Part shown: in pieces, positions 7,525 to 47,823 of the stretch
Layout of the letters: each line of letters opens with the position of its first letter
Position numbering within the stretch: position 1 is the first letter of the stretch
NCBI GenBank assembly: GCA_902386555.1
Contig: CABMJJ010000009.1
Coordinates: 275,680-339,679 of the forward strand
Origin: Candidatus Bilamarchaeum dharawalense
GTDB lineage: Archaea > Micrarchaeota > Micrarchaeia > Anstonellales > Bilamarchaeaceae
DNA: 64,000 nucleotides
Direction of reading: 5' to 3'
Notes under the pieces: model-generated
Seen by the model: only the letters and a program-made list of their open reading frames with translations
Databases searched by the model: none
What the model was told of the DNA's origin: nothing
Translations under genes and position numbers: made by a program

Positions 7525-9090
7525 TCAAAGAGAATAGATACTATTATTGATTTTTTTGTCTTTTTCTAGTTTTTTGTTAATCTCATCCAGCACTTTTTTC
7601 TTAATTTTCAAATATTGCTCTCGTCCAACTTCCACATTACCTATGGCATATCGTTTACCCTTTATATTAAAACAAAACATGCAGTTAGACAGGCCTTCGC
7701 AATTATGACAGAACATGGAATCTGAACAATCCCTGCAGTTATCCATCTCAAAACATCTAACAAGTTTTTGAGAGTGATAGCAGGTTATGCAGAAGCTAGA
7801 ATCAAAAAGAGTGTCAAAGCCAAAGCAATTTTCTGAATTTTTTGGCCACATGCCACACCCGCAGTATTTGGATTTGACAACTGCAGATGCTTTGTAACAA
7901 TGTGCCGCATTCACAGTGACAGTAGATTCGATGAAATTCTCCACATTTCCCTCTCGAATATCCACTGTAAAGTAGGCAAGCTTGCCAATGGACTGGTGAA
8001 TATTATCCAATCGGATATTCTCTGCCTCCTCCTTGCTAAATTTCACTGTCTCACCAATCTGCCAGGCTTCATCCATGGTTACCACCACATCTTTTGGAAG
8101 AGCCTCTAGCGCGATAACATAGGGAAGCATAAGAAGTCTTTTGCCGCTGATTGCTGATTTTCTCTCCTCGATCTTATGGGCGTGGGTGTAAAGCCAGTCA
8201 TCGTAATCATCAATTTTAGTTAGTTGCTTCCCAAGCACAACAGCGGAAGTATTAGTAAAAGCATCTTCAATGATTTTTTTATTCTCAAATACCTTTTGCT
8301 CTGGTTTTGGAGTAAAATTTGGCTTTTGAAGCTTGGCTTTTTTGGTGATATCAAGCAGAGATGGAAGGGATTTGTTCTGCTTCAAACAATCAACCATTTG
8401 TTCCAAGAGAGATTTTTTGATGGATAGATATTTGTCTCGGTCGATTTCAAGATTTCCAATGCAATATTTTTTGTTTTTTAGGTGAAATGAAAAGAGACAG
8501 TTTGAACAGCCATTGAGATTTGAAATGTAATAGCAGTCAGAGCAGTTTTGAGCAGACCAGACCTCAAAAGAACGCTTAACTGCAAACGTCTGAGTACAGC
8601 GTATACAAAATTCTGTGTCCCCAGGACCGTGAACACCAAAACAATTACTACTGTCTCGTCCAACTGTACAGTAGGCAAGGTATTTGGAATTCATGAATTG
8701 GGCAGTATCGGTCACAAAATGGCAATCAGTAAGATTTGCACTTCTTTCCACATGGCTTGAATTGCCTAGGACAGTGTTCCCACAATAGTAAACCCTATCA
8801 GAAATGGCCTGGGTGAGAGATTCAAGATCTTTTATTTCATTGATATCAAGCTCGAACTTTTGGTTAAAGTTCACTTCGTCAAAACTGATGAACTTTGCAT
8901 TTTTGGGGTATTCTTTTATGGAAAATGCAACATCCTTCCCAGATACATTGGATTTTCGAATAACATTGGAATCGATCAGGCCGGAAAGCCATTTTGAATA
9001 ATCCGTGAGTTCGCCTACTTCCTGACCGAAAAGAAGATTGCATGTCTTTTTCCAGGATTGGTTCAGGATGGTATAGGTTTCAGATGCCAT
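7525..9090 (-). CDS. Cys-rich repeat protein, fused N-type + C-type
   Basis: Two copies of LG..G.L.DY..WL ... SGK ... Cys-rich ... IGNxxxxRxxYLxIKK. Confidence 0.8.
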   Translation of the reverse strand: MASETYTILNQSWKKTCNLLFGQEVGELTDYSKWLSGLIDSNVIRKSNVSGKDVAFSIKEYPKNAKFISFDEVNFNQKFELDINEIKDLESLTQAISDRVYYCGNTVLGNSSHVERSANLTDCHFVTDTAQFMNSKYLAYCTVGRDSSNCFGVHGPGDTEFCIRCTQTFAVKRSFEVWSAQNCSDCYYISNLNGCSNCLFSFHLKNKKYCIGNLEIDRDKYLSIKKSLLEQMVDCLKQNKSLPSLLDITKKAKLQKPNFTPKPEQKVFENKKIIEDAFTNTSAVVLGKQLTKIDDYDDWLYTHAHKIEERKSAISGKRLLMLPYVIALEALPKDVVVTMDEAWQIGETVKFSKEEAENIRLDNIHQSIGKLAYFTVDIREGNVENFIESTVTVNAAHCYKASAVVKSKYCGCGMWPKNSENCFGFDTLFDSSFCITCYHSQKLVRCFEMDNCRDCSDSMFCHNCEGLSNCMFCFNIKGKRYAIGNVEVGREQYLKIKKKVLDEINKKLEKDKKINNSIYSL

Positions 9091-9865
9091 GAATTCCGCC
9101 TCCCAAATTGTAGATATTCAACTCCAATCTTTTGTTTTTTTCGATTTTCTCGGCAATTTCGCCAATTATTTTGTTTTTTATCTTCAGATATGTTTCTCTT
9201 CCAAGCTCAACATTCATTATTGCATATCTAAGCGATTTTGCGTTAAAACAAAACATACAGTTATTCAGATTTTCACAATTGTGACAGAAATAGCAATCAG
9301 TACAATTGCTGCAGTCACTTAGTTCAAAACATCTAGCTAATTTTACAGAATTATAACATTTCATTGAAAAGTTAGAGGCAAAAAGGAAATGACCGCCAAA
9401 GCAGTATTCTGATTCACGTGGCCAGAAGCAGTAGGCATCGCATTTGGAATAGATATACCATACTCCGTCCAAACAGTGCTGGGCATGCATAAATGTTGAG
9501 GTTTTCCTAAGATCTTGGTTATTACCAAGCATGACATCTGAAGTCACATATTTAATGCCATTTAACTTTTCAGAAGCATTTGCCAGTGTTATCATCTTAG
9601 CATCATTTTCAGACAGCTGTTTCTTACCAAGTTCCAGAGATTCTTCCAGGGTTACCATGTTCTTTTTTATTGAATTAAAAAACAAAATGTCTGGCACGTA
9701 AACAATGTTGTCGCTAGCTTGAGACTTGATGTGAAGAGCTTTACTAACATTTTCCAAGAGCCATTCCCGATAGCTTTCAACGCCAGCAAGTTTCTTGCCA
9801 AGAAGAATGAAGGAAGTTTCCTGGAAAGCACGCTCGATTTCATCCATGAACATCACCGTTGACAA
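9080..9865 (-). CDS. Cys-rich repeat protein, C-type half
   Basis: YCFWPRESEYCFGGH, CHNCENLNNCMFCFNAKSLRYAIMN; likely start at MDEIERAF. Confidence 0.8.
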   Translation of the reverse strand: MSTVMFMDEIERAFQETSFILLGKKLAGVESYREWLLENVSKALHIKSQASDNIVYVPDILFFNSIKKNMVTLEESLELGKKQLSENDAKMITLANASEKLNGIKYVTSDVMLGNNQDLRKTSTFMHAQHCLDGVWYIYSKCDAYCFWPRESEYCFGGHFLFASNFSMKCYNSVKLARCFELSDCSNCTDCYFCHNCENLNNCMFCFNAKSLRYAIMNVELGRETYLKIKNKIIGEIAEKIEKNKRLELNIYNLGGGIHGI

Positions 9866-10616
9866 TGTCTATCAAAGATGGCAACGCTTTCTTTGATTTG
9901 AGAGTATCACGCATGTCGCAGATTAATTTTTCCTTTAGCTTATGGTATTCTTCAGAGCTGAATTGGCAATTGCCAATCAGATAGCTCTTGTTTCTCTGAT
10001 TAAATGAAAACATGCAATTGGTACAATTTTCTAAACTTCCTGTGAAATAACAATCAGAAGCAACATAATTTCTGATGGTTTCCATGCATCGTACATTCTT
10101 GTAGGTTTCAAAAGTCTTGATATTGAACTTGCTTGCTTCCCCAATGGCATTGCCACCAAAAATATACTCTGCAAATCTTAGTACTGAGGAATAGGCAACA
10201 AACTTGCAATCGTAAACATCTTGTGTTTTGTAGATAAATGAGGAATTTATGCATCTGTTGGAAGTTTCGACCTGACGCGAATTGCCAAGAACAACATTGC
10301 CAATGTAGAATGCCTTTTCCTTTGCCACTGCGATGATGGAGTCCAGATCTTTTACATCATCGATGTTGAATTTGGCCTTGCCAACTTCTCTCATATACTG
10401 ATCCATTTCGTCAAGACTAAGGAATTTGGAACCACTAGGGACTTTATCAGATGAGACAATAACGTCTTTTCCAGAAATTGCTGATTTTTTCATTCCGAAT
10501 GGTTCAACATATCGCAAAAGCCATTCTTCGTAGTTTTTGAGCTCGCCCAGCTCGTCTCCTAGCAATACTTTGCAGGTTTTTTTCCAAGCAGTATTTATTT
10601 CCGGGTTCATATTCAC
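9840..10616 (-). CDS. Cys-rich repeat protein, N-type half
   Basis: INTAWKKTCKVLLGDELGELKNYEEWL, KSAISGKDV, NCMFSFNQRNKSYLIGN, ends LPSLIDIVNGDVHG. Confidence 0.8.
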   Translation of the reverse strand: MNMNPEINTAWKKTCKVLLGDELGELKNYEEWLLRYVEPFGMKKSAISGKDVIVSSDKVPSGSKFLSLDEMDQYMREVGKAKFNIDDVKDLDSIIAVAKEKAFYIGNVVLGNSRQVETSNRCINSSFIYKTQDVYDCKFVAYSSVLRFAEYIFGGNAIGEASKFNIKTFETYKNVRCMETIRNYVASDCYFTGSLENCTNCMFSFNQRNKSYLIGNCQFSSEEYHKLKEKLICDMRDTLKSKKALPSLIDIVNGDVHG

Positions 10617-11395
10617 TGCCCCACATTGAAAATGTTTAATTTCAGGCCTTTTGTTTGCTCCAGTTCCTTGTGAATGTAGCCCAAAACCATTTGTTTTATC
10701 TCCATATACCTGTCTCTGCCAACTTCTACATTGCAGATGGCATACCTCTTGGCTTTTACATTAAAGCAGAACATGCAATTGTTCAAATTCTCGCAATTAT
10801 GGCAGAACAGGGAATCGGTACAATTGGTGCAATCGCTCATCTCAAAGCAACGATTGAGATTTTCAGAATTGTAGCATTTAATACAAAACTGAGATGAAAA
10901 TGTGTAGAAGGTACCAATGCTGTAATCAGATTGTCTTGGCCAGAAGCAATAGTAGCAGTATTTTGATCGAACCATGGCAACGGATTTGTAGCAATAATGG
11001 GAAGAATAGTAGAAATCACAATCAATAAGGTTGCTGCACTCTCCATATTTGGTATTAGGAGTAACTGTGGACAGTTTTTGCAGAGTGTTTTTTGCATTGG
11101 AAAGATTTAGTTGTTCGAGATCAGCTGGGGAAAGCTGCTTTTTACCCTGGATATCATAGCCTTCTTCAATGGTAAGAATATTGTGTTTTATATCTCTGTA
11201 AAAATCAAATGGCGGAAGATAGATTTTCTCCCTACTCATCACTGACTCTCCATATTCATTTGTGGAAACATTTTCGGTGAGCCATTTTTCGTAGTCTCTG
11301 AAATTACCCAGTTTTTTTCCTAAAACAACTGACGTGATGGTTTGGAAAGTCTTCTCCAAATCAGCTTCTAACTTTGAATCAACCATTCCAATCAC
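10613..11395 (-). CDS. Cys-rich repeat protein, C-type half
   Basis: YCFWPRQSDYSIGTF, CHNCENLNNCMFCFNVKAKRYAICN. Confidence 0.8.
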   Translation of the reverse strand: MIGMVDSKLEADLEKTFQTITSVVLGKKLGNFRDYEKWLTENVSTNEYGESVMSREKIYLPPFDFYRDIKHNILTIEEGYDIQGKKQLSPADLEQLNLSNAKNTLQKLSTVTPNTKYGECSNLIDCDFYYSSHYCYKSVAMVRSKYCYYCFWPRQSDYSIGTFYTFSSQFCIKCYNSENLNRCFEMSDCTNCTDSLFCHNCENLNNCMFCFNVKAKRYAICNVEVGRDRYMEIKQMVLGYIHKELEQTKGLKLNIFNVGQ

Positions 11396-12167
11396 CTTTT
11401 CCGCTGAGAATCTGAATTACAGATGGTAGTTTTTTCTTTTTCTTCAATTCATCTGCAAATTCTTTGACCAATTTGGCCTTGAGACTAGCGTATTTGTCCT
11501 TTGCAAGTGGCACATTCCCAATGAGATAGTGTTTATTTCTTTGATTGAAGGAGAAGATGCAATTGGTGCAATCTTCAAGACTTGCCGAGTAATAGCTATC
11601 TGATGCAACGTTGCAGTGATAGGTTTCCAAGCATCTAATCTGTTTGTGTGGATCAAGGACTTTTATGCAGAATTGGATCTCTCCACCAAAACAGCATCCG
11701 AATGAATATTCGGGGCTGCGGATAGATGTTGTATAAGCAACATATTTCCCATCGTAAACATCCTGACAACCGATGGCATAGACAGTATTGACACAGCGAT
11801 GGGAATTGAGAATGTTACTTGAATTGCCCAAAACAATGTTTCCTGCATAAACCACCTTTTCCTTTGTAGCACGGACAAGAGAATCGATATCTTTGATGTC
11901 ATTTATGTTAAAAGGCAAGGAGGCGGTTTTTTTAGCATAGGCTTCCATTTCGTTGTGTCCAATAACCCTTGCTGTTTTCGGAACCCGATTGGATGAGATG
12001 GTAACATCGGTTCCAGATAGGATAGATTTCCTTTTCACTATGGGATCGGTATAGATCTTGAGATAGTCAGCAAAACTGTTTAGATCTCCAATTTCTTCCC
12101 CAAGAAGAACTTTGCAAGTAGACCGCCAGGATTTGTCAAGTTGGGCCAAAATCAAAGTATCAGTCAT
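11379..12167 (-). CDS. Cys-rich repeat protein, N-type half
   Basis: Start refined to MTDTLILAQLDKSWRSTCKVLLGEEIG; NCIFSFNQRNKHYLIGN; ends LPSVIQILSGKGDWNG. Confidence 0.8.
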   Translation of the reverse strand: MTDTLILAQLDKSWRSTCKVLLGEEIGDLNSFADYLKIYTDPIVKRKSILSGTDVTISSNRVPKTARVIGHNEMEAYAKKTASLPFNINDIKDIDSLVRATKEKVVYAGNIVLGNSSNILNSHRCVNTVYAIGCQDVYDGKYVAYTTSIRSPEYSFGCCFGGEIQFCIKVLDPHKQIRCLETYHCNVASDSYYSASLEDCTNCIFSFNQRNKHYLIGNVPLAKDKYASLKAKLVKEFADELKKKKKLPSVIQILSGKGDWNG

Positions 12168-12960
12168 GTTTTTCACCTGGTTTCCCAATGGAGTAGATAT
12201 CAAAATCTAATGCTCTTGTTTTCATCAACTGGCTTGTGATTGTTTGTAAAAGAATTTTTTTCACGCGCATGTATTGCTCCCGCCCAACTTCTATATTTCC
12301 AATTGCATATCGTTTGTTTTTCACATTAAAACAAAACATGCAGTCGGTCAGGCCTTCGGAATTGTGACAAAACAAAATATCACTGGAATGGTAACAGCCG
12401 TCTACCTCGAATGCACGGGTAACTTTAACTGAATTGTAGGTATGGATACAGAATTGGGAATATGGGGTGTTGTGACAACCGAACATATTCTGGGAGTACA
12501 TTGTGTAGTTGGAATATGCCACGTTCTTTATGCCGCCATAAAGATCATCACCATAATAGAGAAACATACCGTCACCTGCACCGCCGCATTTGTCAACATT
12601 GGTATAGGTTCTCCACCGGTAGTTGCCAATCGCATAGGCAATTGGAGTAACTATTCGGGTCATCATGTCTTTGAGATCAGAACTTTTAATGTCATCAAAA
12701 GTAAATTTGGTTTGGTTTACCATGCCCATTTCTTCCATGGAAATTGATCGTTTTGTAGAAATTTTCCTTCCCATGAAGTTTAGTGTTGGAAAATTCCACA
12801 CGATCTTGTCACTAACTGCGGATTTGGCTGGATGGGGAAGTGGAATGTGTTTTCCAAGCCAAGAGCCATAATCATCAATACCACTAAGAGATTCGCCAAG
12901 AAGGATGCGGGTGGTATTTGAAAATTCCTTTTCCAGTTCAGGCCAGACCATTTTAGCCAC
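12160..12960 (-). CDS. Cys-rich repeat protein, C-type half
   Basis: CHNSEGLTDCMFCFNVKNKRYAIGNIEVGREQY. Confidence 0.8.
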   Translation of the reverse strand: MAKMVWPELEKEFSNTTRILLGESLSGIDDYGSWLGKHIPLPHPAKSAVSDKIVWNFPTLNFMGRKISTKRSISMEEMGMVNQTKFTFDDIKSSDLKDMMTRIVTPIAYAIGNYRWRTYTNVDKCGGAGDGMFLYYGDDLYGGIKNVAYSNYTMYSQNMFGCHNTPYSQFCIHTYNSVKVTRAFEVDGCYHSSDILFCHNSEGLTDCMFCFNVKNKRYAIGNIEVGREQYMRVKKILLQTITSQLMKTRALDFDIYSIGKPGEKHD

Positions 12961-13726
12961 CCCTCTCTTCGCCGATGATATCCATTATGGAAACTGTTCG
13001 GTGCTTTTTTTTCAAGTCCTGTGCCATTTCTGAAATAAGCTTTGCTTTCAAAGCAGCATACTGTTCCTTGCTTAACTGTACATTCCCAATCATGTTTCTT
13101 TTGGCATGCACATTGAATGTGAACATACAATCTGACGAACCGTTTGCATTATGGCAGAAATAACAATCAGAGCTGCTGACAGTAAGGCTACACTCAAAAC
13201 AGCGCTTAAGCGAATTGTTATAGAGACATCGTACCAGCATGGAACTGTCCCCACTTGAAGTTGAGGCAAAACAATAGTCGTTGTTTCTCAGCATGTAGCA
13301 GTAGGCGATATATTTTCCATTTACAATCATGGATGAATCCAGAACATAATTGCTATCTGTAATATTATCTGAATTTTCAACAAACTTCGAGTTGCCAAGC
13401 ACTTTGTTGCCACTGTAGATAAATTTTTCTTCAACTGCCTCAAAAAGAGAATCAATGTCCCTGATCTGGTTAACATCAATTGGTTTTGATAGGATGGTTG
13501 CACCAGTGATTTCGTCATTGTAATCAAAGAATTTGGCTTCTTTAGGATAATGATTGGAAGTAACGAATATGTTTTTTCCAGAAATAATGGATTTCACTGA
13601 TTTGCCAACCAGTGGTTCTTTCAAATAATCATAATAGTCCTTCATCTCACCCAATGGCTCCCCGAATAGTACTTTTGTTGTTGATTTCCAAGACTGATTA
13701 ATTACATCATAAGCTTTGTCCGCCAT
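12953..13726 (-). CDS. Cys-rich repeat protein, N-type half
   Basis: VINQSWKSTTKVLFGEPLGEMKDYYDYL, SIISGKNI, CMFTFNVHAKRNMIGN. Confidence 0.8.
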   Translation of the reverse strand: MADKAYDVINQSWKSTTKVLFGEPLGEMKDYYDYLKEPLVGKSVKSIISGKNIFVTSNHYPKEAKFFDYNDEITGATILSKPIDVNQIRDIDSLFEAVEEKFIYSGNKVLGNSKFVENSDNITDSNYVLDSSMIVNGKYIAYCYMLRNNDYCFASTSSGDSSMLVRCLYNNSLKRCFECSLTVSSSDCYFCHNANGSSDCMFTFNVHAKRNMIGNVQLSKEQYAALKAKLISEMAQDLKKKHRTVSIMDIIGEERGG

Positions 13727-15306
13727 AGTCTCTTCCTCCCTCCACCGAGAGTAAAGATATCCAAACCAAGTTCCTTATTTTTTTCAAGTTCATCAAGAAT
13801 CTGGTTCAGTACTGCTGCTCGTATGGATTTGTATTTGTCTGGTGCAAGTGCACCGTTGCCAATTGCATAGCGTAGGTTTTTTGCATTAAAACAGAACATA
13901 CTGTCTCTGACATTTTCACAATTATGGGCAAAATAAACGTCTGAGCAATTGTTGGAGGCATCTACTTCAAATGCTCTGGAAAGATTAACCGAATAATATG
14001 TGTGAAGACAGAAACTGGAGGTGAATGAAAGCCCGCAGCCATACATATATTTTGAATTTCTTGGCCAGTAGGAAAATGCAACATTATCATTGAAAGATGC
14101 AATTGGACAGTAATAGCAATTTACTGAAGTATTGCATAATGGAACAACAATAAGATTTTTTGTTTCTCCAAGCTGGCCTTCTGGATTGAAATATGCTATT
14201 TTGCCAATTGATTTTGACAGACTAGAGATCGAATCGATGTCTTCAACATCAAGTTGCATGTTTTCGCCCAACTCCCAGTTCTCCCATTGCGTGACCAGAC
14301 GATCTCTGGAATAAAGATGGAACGGGGATGTTTCACCAAGATAGACGGTTTTTCCACTTGCCAGGGACTTTTCCTCGCTGATGTGGGGGACATGCCTCAG
14401 AAGCCATTCCTTGTAATCATCAATTTTTTCTAGTTGCTTGCCAAAAAGTAATGATGTTGTTTTCTGGAATCCCAATTCAATTGGTTCTTTGTTCTTCTGA
14501 TCCCTATCACCGGAAGGACTGAACCCTTTTGGAACCTCTAGTGCCTTGCAGCTTTTGGATGCGAATTCCATAAGCGACGGGAGTTTTTTCTTTTTTTCAA
14601 ATTCGCCTCTCAATTCCTCAAGAAGTTTTGCCTTTAGAGACAGGTATTTATCTTTTGAAAGTTGGATATTGCCAATAACATTTCGCTTGTTCTTTAGATT
14701 GAATGAGAATAGAACATCTTGAGAGCCCTGGACACATGAACTGAAATAGCAGTCACTTGAATCATAGCACTTCCAAGCTTCTAGACATCTTGATTGCTTA
14801 TGGGTTTCAAATGCCCTTACGGTGCTGGTAGTGAAAGCATCGCTGACTACACCAAAAAGATATTTGCTTCCTCTACAATAGGAGCAGTATGCCATGTATT
14901 CTGAATCATAGATAAAATTGGAATTGTAAACATAAAATGAATTCTGAACGTCGGAACTCTTTTCCACATGCTTGGAATTAGCAAGAACAACATTGCCACA
15001 GTAATAAAGCCGTTCTTCTAAGGCATCTAAAATCGAATCTATATCTTTTACCTGGTTAATGTTCAATGGCTCCTGTTTTTTCCCATAATCAACTTCGTCT
15101 AATGAGAGGAATTTGGCATTGTCAGCATAGTCTGAGACTGCACAATACACTTCTTTTCCCGAAAATGCAGACTGTTTGTTTTTAAGTGGAACAAGACCTT
15201 CAGAAAGCCAATCTGCATAATCGTCAATATCACCAACTTCCGCACCAAGAAGAACTTTCATGGTTGATTTCCATGAACGATTAATTGCATCCTTTGTTTG
15301 GTTCAT
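13702..15306 (-). CDS. Cys-rich repeat protein, fused N-type + C-type
   Basis: Two half-domains; second has FSYWPRNSKYMYGCG and MFCFNAKNLRYAIGN. Confidence 0.8.
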   Translation of the reverse strand: MNQTKDAINRSWKSTMKVLLGAEVGDIDDYADWLSEGLVPLKNKQSAFSGKEVYCAVSDYADNAKFLSLDEVDYGKKQEPLNINQVKDIDSILDALEERLYYCGNVVLANSKHVEKSSDVQNSFYVYNSNFIYDSEYMAYCSYCRGSKYLFGVVSDAFTTSTVRAFETHKQSRCLEAWKCYDSSDCYFSSCVQGSQDVLFSFNLKNKRNVIGNIQLSKDKYLSLKAKLLEELRGEFEKKKKLPSLMEFASKSCKALEVPKGFSPSGDRDQKNKEPIELGFQKTTSLLFGKQLEKIDDYKEWLLRHVPHISEEKSLASGKTVYLGETSPFHLYSRDRLVTQWENWELGENMQLDVEDIDSISSLSKSIGKIAYFNPEGQLGETKNLIVVPLCNTSVNCYYCPIASFNDNVAFSYWPRNSKYMYGCGLSFTSSFCLHTYYSVNLSRAFEVDASNNCSDVYFAHNCENVRDSMFCFNAKNLRYAIGNGALAPDKYKSIRAAVLNQILDELEKNKELGLDIFTLGGGRKRLWRTKLMM

Positions 15307-16868
15307 TTCATCCCACCTATTGTGAAAATGCTAAACCGGCAGTTCTTCTTCTGGAGAATTTCTGAACTAAGCTGCTCAAGAACAGATTCTTTGATTTTTG
15401 AATAATCAGCTTGGGGCAGGGATGTGTTCCCGATGGCATGTCGCTTACCTTTCACATTAAAACAAAACATCGAATCAGTTAGCCCTTCTGAATTATGGCA
15501 AAACAATGCATCTGCGCATTTGGTAGAGGTATCAACTTCCAAACAGCGGCTTAGGTACAGAGAATTATGGCAGTTGATGCAGAATTCAGAATTCATATTG
15601 CGGTAGCCACCAAAGATATACTTGGAACTGAACGCTGACGATATGACCCCCAAATTCTCGCTTTGAACAATGTCAAAGCCCTTGTAGATATTATTTGTGT
15701 AGTAGACCAAAGGAGACTGGATCGTGTTTTTGTTTACGCCATCCAGAATTTCTACTGAGAAATAGGCAATCTGACCAAGCTGGGAAGTGATGGAATCAAT
15801 CGACCCTAGAGCAGACTGGTCCATGACGATCTTGCCCAGTTCCAGCCCTTCGTTTAAAGTCACAAAAAGGTCTTTTGGAAATAATGAAATGGCATAAAGA
15901 TCTGGATGGGAGGGACGGTAGGTTGTGCTGCCAAACATGGTTTGTATTGGTTCCATCTTCATTTTTTCAGAGGCAAGCCAGTTTTCATATTCTGTGATTG
16001 ACCCCGGCTCTTTTTTCAGAATAATTTTGAAGGTGGATGCAAAACTTTTCTCAATGGGTTTCATATCACTGCTTTCCTGTTTTTTTGGAACAGAAATTGG
16101 AGGTTTTTTTCCAGATTTGCTTCTGTTTACAAGTTCAAACAATGATGGATATTTTTTGTTGGTTTTTAGCGACTGGATAACTTCGGAAAGAAGTTTCTTT
16201 TTCAAGTCAAAGTATTTATCTCGTGAAAGTTGGACATTGCCTATCTTGTGTTTCTGGTTTCTTTGAAAAAAGCAGAACATTAACTCGCTAGAATTCACGC
16301 ATTGGTTTGAAAAGTAAAGATCGCTACAATCACCAATAATATGACTTTCGAAAATTCGCTTGCAATTGAATCCGCCGAAAAACCGTATGGTAAATTCTGT
16401 CTTCCCAAACCAGCCTGATCCGAAAATGTTCTTGCTACCAAGGCGGATAAGCGAGGAATAGAAGACATTTGTCGATTCTGAGACATTCAAAGAATTTGCA
16501 ACATAATTGGAATCCATCACAAGATCAGATGATTCTACGAATTTTGAATTTCCTAGAACTCTGTTACCGGTGTAGGCCCATTCCTCTGAAACTGCACGAA
16601 CTAGAGAGTCTATGTCTTTGATATCGTTGATGCTTAATGGTTTGGATGTTGAGATTTCATCTGCTGAGATTACGTTTGCCAACTTAGAATAGTCTGATGC
16701 AAGGTAAACTTCCTTGCCAGAAATAGCAGATTTAGAAATTTGTGGTTTGGGGCAGTATTCTGCCAACCAGTCCTCATAGTCTCTAAGCTCGCCCAGTTCC
16801 TCTCCTAGAAGAATCTTGCACGTAGACTTCCAGGATCGGTTGAGTGCTGAGTAGAGCTCGGAATTCAT
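15303..16868 (-). CDS. Cys-rich repeat protein, fused N-type + C-type; first ORF of the minus-strand array
   Basis: Two half-domains; ATGA overlap (15303-15306) with next ORF. Confidence 0.8.
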   Translation of the reverse strand: MNSELYSALNRSWKSTCKILLGEELGELRDYEDWLAEYCPKPQISKSAISGKEVYLASDYSKLANVISADEISTSKPLSINDIKDIDSLVRAVSEEWAYTGNRVLGNSKFVESSDLVMDSNYVANSLNVSESTNVFYSSLIRLGSKNIFGSGWFGKTEFTIRFFGGFNCKRIFESHIIGDCSDLYFSNQCVNSSELMFCFFQRNQKHKIGNVQLSRDKYFDLKKKLLSEVIQSLKTNKKYPSLFELVNRSKSGKKPPISVPKKQESSDMKPIEKSFASTFKIILKKEPGSITEYENWLASEKMKMEPIQTMFGSTTYRPSHPDLYAISLFPKDLFVTLNEGLELGKIVMDQSALGSIDSITSQLGQIAYFSVEILDGVNKNTIQSPLVYYTNNIYKGFDIVQSENLGVISSAFSSKYIFGGYRNMNSEFCINCHNSLYLSRCLEVDTSTKCADALFCHNSEGLTDSMFCFNVKGKRHAIGNTSLPQADYSKIKESVLEQLSSEILQKKNCRFSIFTIGGMK

Positions 16869-30522: not shown

Positions 30523-30587
30523 TCAGTCCATATCTTGAACGACGAATCGTTCAAGAGAGTATTGAAACGCTATGCGTTTCAATCCAT
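30523..30587 (-). repeat. Twin-hairpin palindromic element at the thermosome 3' end with flanking imperfect direct repeat
   Basis: Hairpins CTTGAACGA-CGAA-TCGTTCAAG (30534-30555) and ATTGAAACGC-TAT-GCGTTTCAAT (30561-30583); flanks TCAGTCCAT (30523-30531) and TCAATCCAT (30579-30587), both reading ATG GAY TGA on the gene strand. Confidence 0.85.
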
Positions 30588-32236: not shown

Positions 32237-32287
32237 CTCATTAAAATTCCCATTTTAATAAAGTAAAAATGCTACTGCATTTTTACA
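32237..32287 (-). repeat. Two hairpins in the thermosome 5' leader: ATTAAAAT-TCCC-ATTTTAAT and GTAAAAATGC-TACT-GCATTTTTAC
   Basis: Direct reading, immediately upstream of GAGGTG Shine-Dalgarno-like sequence and ATG. Confidence 0.7.
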
Positions 32288-32492: not shown

Positions 32493-33812
32493 ATGGATTT
32501 GGGTAAAAAACTTAGAGAAGCGCTAGCCAAGCTTACTAATCGTCCCTATGTTGACGAAGATGATGTAAGAGCGCTTATCAAGGATTTGCAAAGAGTTTTG
32601 ATCTCCTCTGATGTCAACGTAAAGCTAGTTTTTGGATTATCGAAAAAAATTGAAGAAAGAGCACTCAAATCCAAGAAGATGGAGGCCCTGACACTCAAGG
32701 AACATGTTACCAAGATAGTATATGAAGAATTGGTTTCGTTGATGGGCCAGAGTTATACTCCACGGTTGGATAAACACAAAATTTTGATGTGTGGCCTTTA
32801 TGGGAGTGGAAAAACCACTTCGTGCGCAAAACTGGCTCATTTTTACAAAACCAGAGGATTGAGTGTTGGACTTATTGCAGCTGATACGGATAGACCCGCA
32901 GCTCAAGAACAATTGGAACAACTGTCCAAGCAGGTAGGTGCAGCCTATTACACTACCAAAGGAGAGAAGGTACCATCAAAAATTGTATTAGAAGCTCTGA
33001 AAAAAGCCAAAGAAGACGTGATAATAGTTGATTCTGCGGGTAGAAGTGGATTGGACGGAGCATTGGTTGAAGAATTACGAAATATTGCAGATGTTCTTAA
33101 GCCAGAAGAATGTTATTTGGTTATTAGTGCAGATATTGGTCAGGTTGCAGGAAAACAGGCAACAGAATTCAATGCAACAGTTCCACTTTCAGGGGTTTTT
33201 GTAACTAAAATGGATGGTTCTGGAAAGGGGGGCGGTGCACTCAGTTCGGTTGCCGCATCCAATGCAAAAATTTCTTTTGTAGGCATTGGAGAAAAACCAG
33301 GAGATATTGAAGTTTATAATTCTGAGAAATTCGTAGGTAGATTATTGGGTGTTCCAGATATTGGGGCATTGATGGAAAAGATCAAAGAAATTTCAGAGGA
33401 AACCGACCTTAAAAAAATCGAAAGTGAAGAACTCACCATAGAATCTTTTTATGAACAGTTAAAGGCAGCCAAAAAATTAGGGCCGTTGAGCAGTGTTTTT
33501 TCCATGATCGGAGCTGTTGATGTGCCAAAGGAAATGGTCCAGCAAAGTGAAGGTAAATTGAAAAAATTTGAATCCATGATAAACTCCATGACAAAAGAGG
33601 AGAAAAAGGATGCTGCTTTGTTGAAAAATAATGCTGCCAGAATAGCAAGAATTGCAAGGGGAAGCGGCTCCAGTGAAAAAGAAGTTCGCGAATTTTTATC
33701 TCAGTTTGAGAAGATGGAAAAAATGATGAACATGTTCAAGAAAAACCGCGGATTCCGTAAAAAAATGGAAAAAATGATGTCGGGAAAGCAGGGCTTTCCC
33801 GGAATGAAGTGA
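32493..33812 (+). CDS. srp54: Signal recognition particle protein SRP54 (C-terminus apparently truncated by an insertion)
   Basis: GLYGSGKTTSCAKLAHFYK, DTDRPAAQEQL, DSAGRSGLD, TKMDGSGKGGGALS, Met-rich C-terminus. Confidence 0.95.
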   Translation: MDLGKKLREALAKLTNRPYVDEDDVRALIKDLQRVLISSDVNVKLVFGLSKKIEERALKSKKMEALTLKEHVTKIVYEELVSLMGQSYTPRLDKHKILMCGLYGSGKTTSCAKLAHFYKTRGLSVGLIAADTDRPAAQEQLEQLSKQVGAAYYTTKGEKVPSKIVLEALKKAKEDVIIVDSAGRSGLDGALVEELRNIADVLKPEECYLVISADIGQVAGKQATEFNATVPLSGVFVTKMDGSGKGGGALSSVAASNAKISFVGIGEKPGDIEVYNSEKFVGRLLGVPDIGALMEKIKEISEETDLKKIESEELTIESFYEQLKAAKKLGPLSSVFSMIGAVDVPKEMVQQSEGKLKKFESMINSMTKEEKKDAALLKNNAARIARIARGSGSSEKEVREFLSQFEKMEKMMNMFKKNRGFRKKMEKMMSGKQGFPGMK

Positions 33813-33837
33813 ACGTTGCGACGTTCACAACATGAAG
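33804..33837 (+). repeat. Palindromic insertion TGAACGTTGCGACGTTCACAAC flanked by direct repeat ATGAAG
   Basis: ATGAAG at 33804-33809 and 33832-33837; in-phase SRP54 tail continues to TAA at 33874-33876 if 28 nt are removed. Confidence 0.85.
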
Positions 33838-43792: not shown

Positions 43793-43870
43793 TTTGTGGG
43801 AACACCCAACGGTTGGGTTTCGAAGGGGCGATGTTGCGAACGAAGCGTCGTTCAAGGACATCCCCTTCAA
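43793..43870 (-). repeat. Composite GC-rich palindromic element carrying a TGAACG...CGTTC palindrome in its first loop
   Basis: Minus strand: TTGAAGGGGATGTCC[TTGAACGACGCTTCGTTCGCAACATC]GCCCCTTCGAAACCCAACCGTTGGGTGTTCCCACAAAC; alignable to 34648-34700. Confidence 0.75.
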
Positions 43871-47472: not shown

Positions 47473-47697
47473 AATCTCACTCTCACAACACCTGTTTAAA
47501 AACTTTCGGAGTTTAGATCGGCAAACGACGGTTTTTTGAGTTTAATTTCACCGTGCGAAATTATTACTAAAGTTTTGCCAAAATTTGCGAGAGCAGATTT
47601 TTAGCAAAACAAATGCAACAGAGCGAACTTCGTCCACTTGTTTCATTTTCGTTCCTGAGTGTTCACGCCGAGCCTTTAGGTGAGGCCAGTGAACAAA

Positions 47698-47762
47698 AAT
47701 GCGACCGCCAGAACGTCGCAACGTTCTGTGGTCAATTGAAGCGAGGCTTCAATGCGACCGCC
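47698..47762 (-). repeat. Twin-hairpin palindromic element at the tRNA-Gly 3' end with 12-bp flanking direct repeat AATGCGACCGCC
   Basis: Repeats at 47698-47709 and 47751-47762; hairpins AGAACGT-CGCA-ACGTTCT (47710-47727) and ATTGAAGC-GAG-GCTTCAAT (47735-47753). Confidence 0.85.
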
Positions 47763-47823
47763 GGGAATTGAACCCGGCCCGCGAGATTGGCAATCTCGAA
47801 TCATACCGATAGACTACGGTCGC
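47753..47823 (-). tRNA. tRNA-Gly (GCC)
   Basis: Minus strand GCGACCG...CGAGA-TTGCCAA-TCTCG...CCGGG-TTCAATT-CCCGG-CGGTCGC-A; acceptor, anticodon and T stems pair. Confidence 0.9.

Follow-up and report, generated by a model that had tools for sequence, protein, structure and literature searches.

A twin-hairpin unit closed by a copy of the tRNA-Gly 3' end, a candidate miniature insertion element in a genus of Candidatus Micrarchaeota

The window (the whole stretch of 64,000 nt analyzed here) contains an intact tRNA-Gly gene with anticodon GCC on the minus strand (47753–47823; Rfam RF00005, 59.6 bits; also called by ARAGORN). On the tRNA strand, the tRNA end is followed by a hairpin, the spacer TGACCA, a second hairpin, and a 12-bp copy of the tRNA end, bearing out the twin-hairpin element with duplicated tRNA-Gly end proposed in a preliminary description of this DNA (47698–47762, minus strand). 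The first copy of the 12-nt direct repeat GGCGGTCGCATT (47751–47762) comprises the tRNA 3' end, the discriminator A, and TT. The second copy (47698–47709), 10 nt of which match the tRNA end proper, closes the insert, which measures ∼41 nt between the repeats and contains no ORF. Hairpin 1 (ATTGAAGC-ctc-GCTTCAAT; 47735–47753) overlaps the end of the first repeat, and hairpin 2 (CAGAACGT-tgcg-ACGTTCTG; 47709–47728) lies next to the second. Both stems are perfect over 8 bp; the hairpins had been recognized correctly, but with arms of 5 and 7 bp that were slightly short. The spacer between them (47729–47734), apparent in the sequence, the predicted fold, and the end-swap test described below, contains GACC, which is complementary to GGTC of the tRNA-Gly end.

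Downstream of the insert, the flank TTTTTGTTCACTGGCC..GTGAACACT (47658–47699, minus strand) is near-identical to TTTTTGTTCACTTGCC..GTGAACAC in the congener G009 and is also found at a second locus of the source genome (L011); the stretch TTTTTGTTCACT.GCC beyond the tRNA-Gly units is likewise common to the source genome and G009. Because the G009 flank lies beyond a tandem array of three units, the units evidently sit between the tRNA and the flank. The number of units at the orthologous tRNA-Gly gene varies from zero (G011, G007, and G003) through one (the source genome, G000) to three in tandem (G015 and G009). The earlier statement that nothing larger is present therefore holds at the window locus but not across the genus. 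Both tRNA-Gly genes of G015 (L121 and L093) are followed by a near-identical unit.

Hairpin 2 includes a 16-nt core, GAACGTTGCGACGTTC, which occurs exactly at 47711–47726 (minus strand) and, as had been claimed, within an insertion in the SRP54 gene (33811–33826, plus strand). A third exact copy is found on contig C8 of the same genome, and six matches with no more than three mismatches are present in the window, as compared to 0.17 expected.

The SRP54 insertion is a 55-nt twin hairpin in the C-terminal tail of the gene (33780–33834, minus strand) and provides an in-frame TGA at 33810–33812. The tail is uninterrupted in 14 congeners (e.g., ..KMMKGGIPGMGDMKMV*), and the 55-nt insert is present only in the source genome. 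A second protein-gene element lies at the thermosome 3' end (30528–30587, plus strand), preceded on the gene strand by ATGGATTGA and followed by ATGGACTGA. This site is empty in most congeners, where the gene ends in ..ATGGACATGGACTGA or similar; related inserts occupy it in G012 (hairpin-GTACAGTC-hairpin, with ACATGGACTGA on both sides) and in G015 (an array with ACATGG on both sides). The empty sites in congeners show insertion at both genes. Such inserts in protein genes bring an in-frame stop near the natural end and should be nearly harmless.

These elements belong to a dispersed family of ∼50 nt with the consensus TG(TC/TT/GA)-hairpin-GACAGT-hairpin-CCA (in short, TGtY..GACAGT..CCA), located mostly at gene 3' ends. 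Twin hairpins with both stems of at least 7 bp number 20 in 458 kb of the source genome, as compared to 0.3 in first-order shuffles, and a second-order Markov control gave 0.1 per 100 kb against 4.8 observed. Among 18 aligned copies, the stems exhibited 30 two-sided changes with 95% of cells paired, while slid partners gave 0 to 6. A covariance model trained on 18 copies, a set from which the window's SRP54 and thermosome copies were left out, recovered both of these (E = 2.2e-8 and 5.7e-8, respectively). This model failed to match the tRNA-Gly copy at a threshold as loose as E = 5, since the spacer there is TGACCA instead of GACAGTC. About a third of the source genome was read as sequence stretches, the remainder being searched by pattern and model. 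By the model, ∼15 distinct copies were counted in the source genome, ∼26 in G004, and 9 in G012; five congeners had none, such that copy number spans 0 to ∼26 per genome within one genus. The pattern GAACG..CGTTC..GACWGTC was present in the source genome and 7 of the 16 congeners tested, and absent from 23 genomes of other genera of the family and order. When genome contigs were scanned by pattern, the close relatives fell in Candidatus Micrarchaeota; 2 of the 13 matches (Caldilineaceae and Acetivibrio) were without a twin hairpin and were dismissed as chance. A viral origin was likewise rejected, there being no matches in phages or in a pattern scan of IMG/VR.

Placement relative to genes was consistent with the expected preference for gene ends: 10 of the 12 elements in the sampled part of the source genome lie no more than 110 nt from a gene 3' end, as compared to 18% of random positions, although 51% of intergenic positions are equally close, so that the association with gene ends, though genuine, partly reflects one with intergenic space. 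One dispersed copy (L025) interrupts an unrelated palindrome in a gene leader. A half element with a single hairpin lies inside the outer stem GAAGGGGATG..CATCGCCCCTTC (43823–43863, minus strand; covariance model E = 1e-4), and the same outer stem encloses two hairpins at L016:14193–14240, suggesting gain or loss of hairpins within a frame that is itself conserved. Elsewhere, an SRP RNA gene (L022:14209–14463) is followed ∼120 nt on by a dispersed-family twin hairpin (14586–14628), and L103 (NC_groundwater_1740 contig 46) carries six adjacent palindromes in a dense chain within about 200 nt.

Two further repeat features were observed. A second twin-palindrome family, GGTG(A/T)AAAAATGC..GCATTTTT(A/T)C-TTT-ATAAAAAT..ATTTTTAT-GAGGTG, lies just upstream of start codons (window 32240–32286; L012:1773; L015:12766; L017:17610; L018:12640; L025:2212) and, judged from its sequence, resembles a promoter or operator common to several genes, among them the thermosome gene. 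Window positions 7525–16868 hold related minus-strand ORFs in series, with 120-nt repeats spaced about 1.55 kb apart.

Flanking duplications range from about 3 to 18 nt. Direct repeats of at least 7 nt flank 5 of 22 dispersed elements, as compared to 0.9 expected, and inverted repeats flanking the same 22 elements were not enriched; a fixed outer stem formed by such inverted repeats was suggestive by eye in several copies, but did not exceed the permutation control. The flanking direct repeats claimed earlier are long at the tRNA and thermosome sites, but long repeats are not typical of most dispersed copies. Duplications of variable length, unclear at most dispersed copies, are unlike the product of a single transposase, and a single-transposase signature with uniform target duplication was rejected. 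At several sites, insertion is shown to have duplicated the target end, and the proposed genome-wide check returned both the 16-mer and the flanking repeats as enriched over chance.

The genus holds, besides the dispersed family, a second and related kind of hairpin-pair insert. Behind many tRNA genes stand trailer units, often in tandem, each of which closes with a copy of its own tRNA's 3' end (7 to 18 nt, sometimes longer, the discriminator base included). In a sample of best Rfam matches, which favors intact tRNAs, 92 congener tRNAs had 25 own-end 8-base copies in the 300 nt downstream of them, where the ends of other tRNAs predict ∼0.3, and 29 tRNAs from other genera had none. Rfam matching was used because most of these tRNAs carry introns, which makes ARAGORN misleading. 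Together with the empty sites in SRP54 and the thermosome gene, own-end copies so far above chance uphold the earlier claim of a twin hairpin recurring at gene 3' ends with end duplication. The window copy at tRNA-Gly is a trailer-type unit carrying hairpins of the dispersed-family type. The trailer units and the dispersed family probably belong together, a connection that rests on architecture, the common 16-nt core, and similar paired spacers.

In this archaeal family, tRNA genes are heavily interrupted, with introns that occupy position 37/38, the T-loop, and the D-arm (L087, L088, L085, L139, and L137), and only one to six tRNAs are recognizable by Rfam in some genomes (G001, G004, G014, and G017 among the heavily interrupted). 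An orphan trailer array in the source genome (L011:1116–1250; contig C9, ∼81.1 kb) contains copies of AAGGCG, the genus tRNA-Asp end, with no tRNA found nearby; this array and the tRNA-Gly flank have TTTTTGTTCACTGG in common.

Trailer units tend to pair with the end of their own tRNA. When tRNA ends were swapped in predicted folds, 13 of 26 units ranked in the best 10% with their own as compared to foreign ends (KS p = 1.2e-5, indicative since units from related species are nonindependent), and for the window unit its own end beat every foreign end (z −3.5). A cruder test of exact complementary stretches was weakly positive (p = 0.018, likewise indicative). Exact reverse complements of the tRNA end of 6–8 nt were not enriched in trailers, the enrichment being limited to shorter or imperfect pairing. 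In these fold predictions, the unit [spacer-hairpin-tRNA end] behaves like an acceptor-stem-like minihelix with imperfect pairing, clearer in some classes than in others. At the window locus, the second half of the transcript, [TGACC-hairpin-GGTCGCA], would fold into a short minihelix of this kind.

Our preferred interpretation, to which we assign a probability of roughly 55%, is that the unit behind tRNA-Gly is a single copy of a miniature insertion element, specific to this genus and made of paired hairpins, which resembles REP dimers and enters gene ends with target duplication. The observations themselves comprise sites occupied in some congeners and empty in others, duplicated ends, covarying stems, units repeated in tandem, and nesting. 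Insertion directly behind tRNA-Gly would duplicate its last ∼10–12 nt, which would leave the tRNA whole and place the second copy at the far end of the insert. Copies would move as units, with folded single-stranded DNA (or RNA) as the recognized form and an enzyme acting in trans. Two candidate engines were rejected. The Y1 transposase (PF01797) and the reverse transcriptase RVT_1 (PF00078) were each found in 5 of 17 genus genomes; neither was found in the source genome, the former was also not found in G004 (these two genomes being the richest in copies), and presence does not track copy number.

Simple target duplication does not account for the complementarity of trailer units to their own tRNA end, and an extra step is needed, the target being copied in both orientations or the pairing being selected afterward. 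The same two options would explain why trailer interiors in relatives tend to complement their own tRNA end. One tentative elaboration is a target-templated miniature element, each tRNA insertion of which would copy the 3' end of that tRNA into itself in both direct and inverted orientation and so build a private array of acceptor-stem minihelices for each tRNA gene. If true, this would represent a previously unknown target-copying insertion mechanism or a tRNA-specific class of trailer RNA.

Another explanation, which we consider rather improbable, dispenses with a parasite altogether: trailer units would be functional RNAs, acceptor-end minihelices that selection maintains as signals in the tRNA precursor, for processing, for termination, or as decoys. 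Pairing of the terminal copy with tRNA-specific sequence inside the unit is consistent with such a role, as is the existence of two trailer classes with constant internal loops and ends that vary with the host tRNA (Ala, Pro, Lys, and Asn). The GRGAA..AACRA loop class occurs at tRNA-Ala, -Pro, and -Lys; the 1x3 loop class (a/GAA) occurs at tRNA-Lys, with related forms at Asn and Ser. Behind tRNA-Lys, class 1 units are found repeatedly, in G002, G009, and G015. However, units are absent from many tRNAs and from nearly whole congeners (G011 and most of G016), and related hairpin pairs lie behind or inside protein genes where there is no tRNA.

It is unlikely that no dedicated element exists and that repeated foldback template switching during replication, seeded by palindromic tRNA ends, produced chains of end, hairpin, inverted end, hairpin, and end. 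This process would yield the order end, inverted end, end, along with perfect stems subject to fast compensatory change, and would fit both the match of the inverted part to local sequence and the variable duplication lengths. The constant single-stranded spacers (GACAGT and CCA) across unrelated loci and species, together with a 16-nt core exact at three loci, point instead to copying between loci, and the intact twin element that breaks another palindrome (L025) also argues against template switching.

Descent from archaeal bulge-helix-bulge introns, with hairpin-bearing tRNA introns re-entering at the 3' end via reverse splicing and reverse transcription, is very improbable. The tRNAs of the genus are full of hairpin-bearing introns, with the T-loop (L087 and L088) and the D-arm (L139) among their sites, and introns and trailers alike contain CCGCCTTTT..AAAAGGCGGCCCAAAAC hairpins; yet the unit folds inspected had no bulge-helix-bulge at their junctions, the SRP54 reading frame hits a stop within the insert, and reverse transcriptase was not found in the source genome, G015, G002, or G009, the genomes with the clearest tRNA units. 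An assembly or binning artifact can scarcely be credited: the genomes compared are of draft quality, and at least some were assembled from metagenomes, where repeats can be misjoined, but independently assembled genomes from different sites show the same architecture, each with sequence specific to the tRNA, and genes that are otherwise conserved contain inserts.

As an insertion element, the preferred interpretation, the family most resembles the REP/BIME sequences (PMC3733652, PMC8266576), with which it shares short palindromes (8–9 bp stems and 3–5 nt loops), dimers with a conserved spacer, many extragenic copies, and a few copies located within genes or within larger palindromes. The paired palindromes with conserved spacer that characterize REP-type sequences were found here (constant GACAGT in the 18 aligned copies; ∼15 in the source genome and ∼26 in G004), in copy numbers that are low for REP. 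CGTC-tagged REPs have 8–9 bp stems and 4–5 nt loops, are mostly dimers, some of them intragenic and some inside larger palindromes, and have no known transposase (PMC3733652). A GTAG/CGTC foot tag was sought in the archaeal family and found absent, its constant unpaired letters being TGTY, GACAGT, and CCA; the family is therefore REP-like, not REP. An association with the REP-type Y1 transposase (RAYT) was also not found, given the lack of a PF01797 match in the source genome and G004. Also unlike REP/BIME, the host is a DPANN archaeon, and tandem units stand behind tRNAs with an own-end copy and complementary sequence. Mitochondrial double-hairpin and repetitive hairpin-forming elements and GC clusters (PMC2800124, PMC4478555) are likewise very small, with double or multiple hairpins, complementary stem changes, tandem merging, and a patchy distribution among close relatives, and yeast GC clusters have short flanking duplications; the empty sites and duplications observed here show both of these last traits in the archaeal elements. 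In contrast, the present elements reside in a cellular archaeal genome, and their duplications cover gene 3' ends and are tRNA-specific; the resemblance proposed is one of kind, not of descent. Tyrosine-recombinase islands at tRNA 3' ends also repeat the tRNA 3' end at the far side of the insert; the archaeal insert, however, is ∼41 nt between repeats of 8–18 nt and geneless, and the integrase/att arrangement was not found. The genomes studied here are also rich in archaeal bulge-helix-bulge tRNA introns (PMC4090602), likewise hairpin-bearing insertions in tRNA genes, but the trailer unit follows a complete tRNA and showed no bulge-helix-bulge at its ends in the folds inspected. Arrays that copy each tRNA's own end were not found described in the searchable literature, outside of which lie most subscription papers and preprints; hairpin inserts finishing with a fresh copy of their own tRNA 3' end are apparently an unreported pattern.

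Together, the findings hint at a very small and unusual mobile element or tRNA-processing unit. If mobile, these units of two hairpins and ∼50 nt would rank with the smallest cellular insertion elements known, and their hosts belong to a lineage whose genomes are highly reduced. In that case, favoring gene ends and then restoring them would illustrate how an element of this kind avoids doing harm. The specificity of the ends for each tRNA raises a testable question, namely whether insertion copies the target or the cell maintains acceptor-stem mimics behind its tRNA genes, and either answer would bear on the origin of the heavy interruption of tRNA genes in the phylum.
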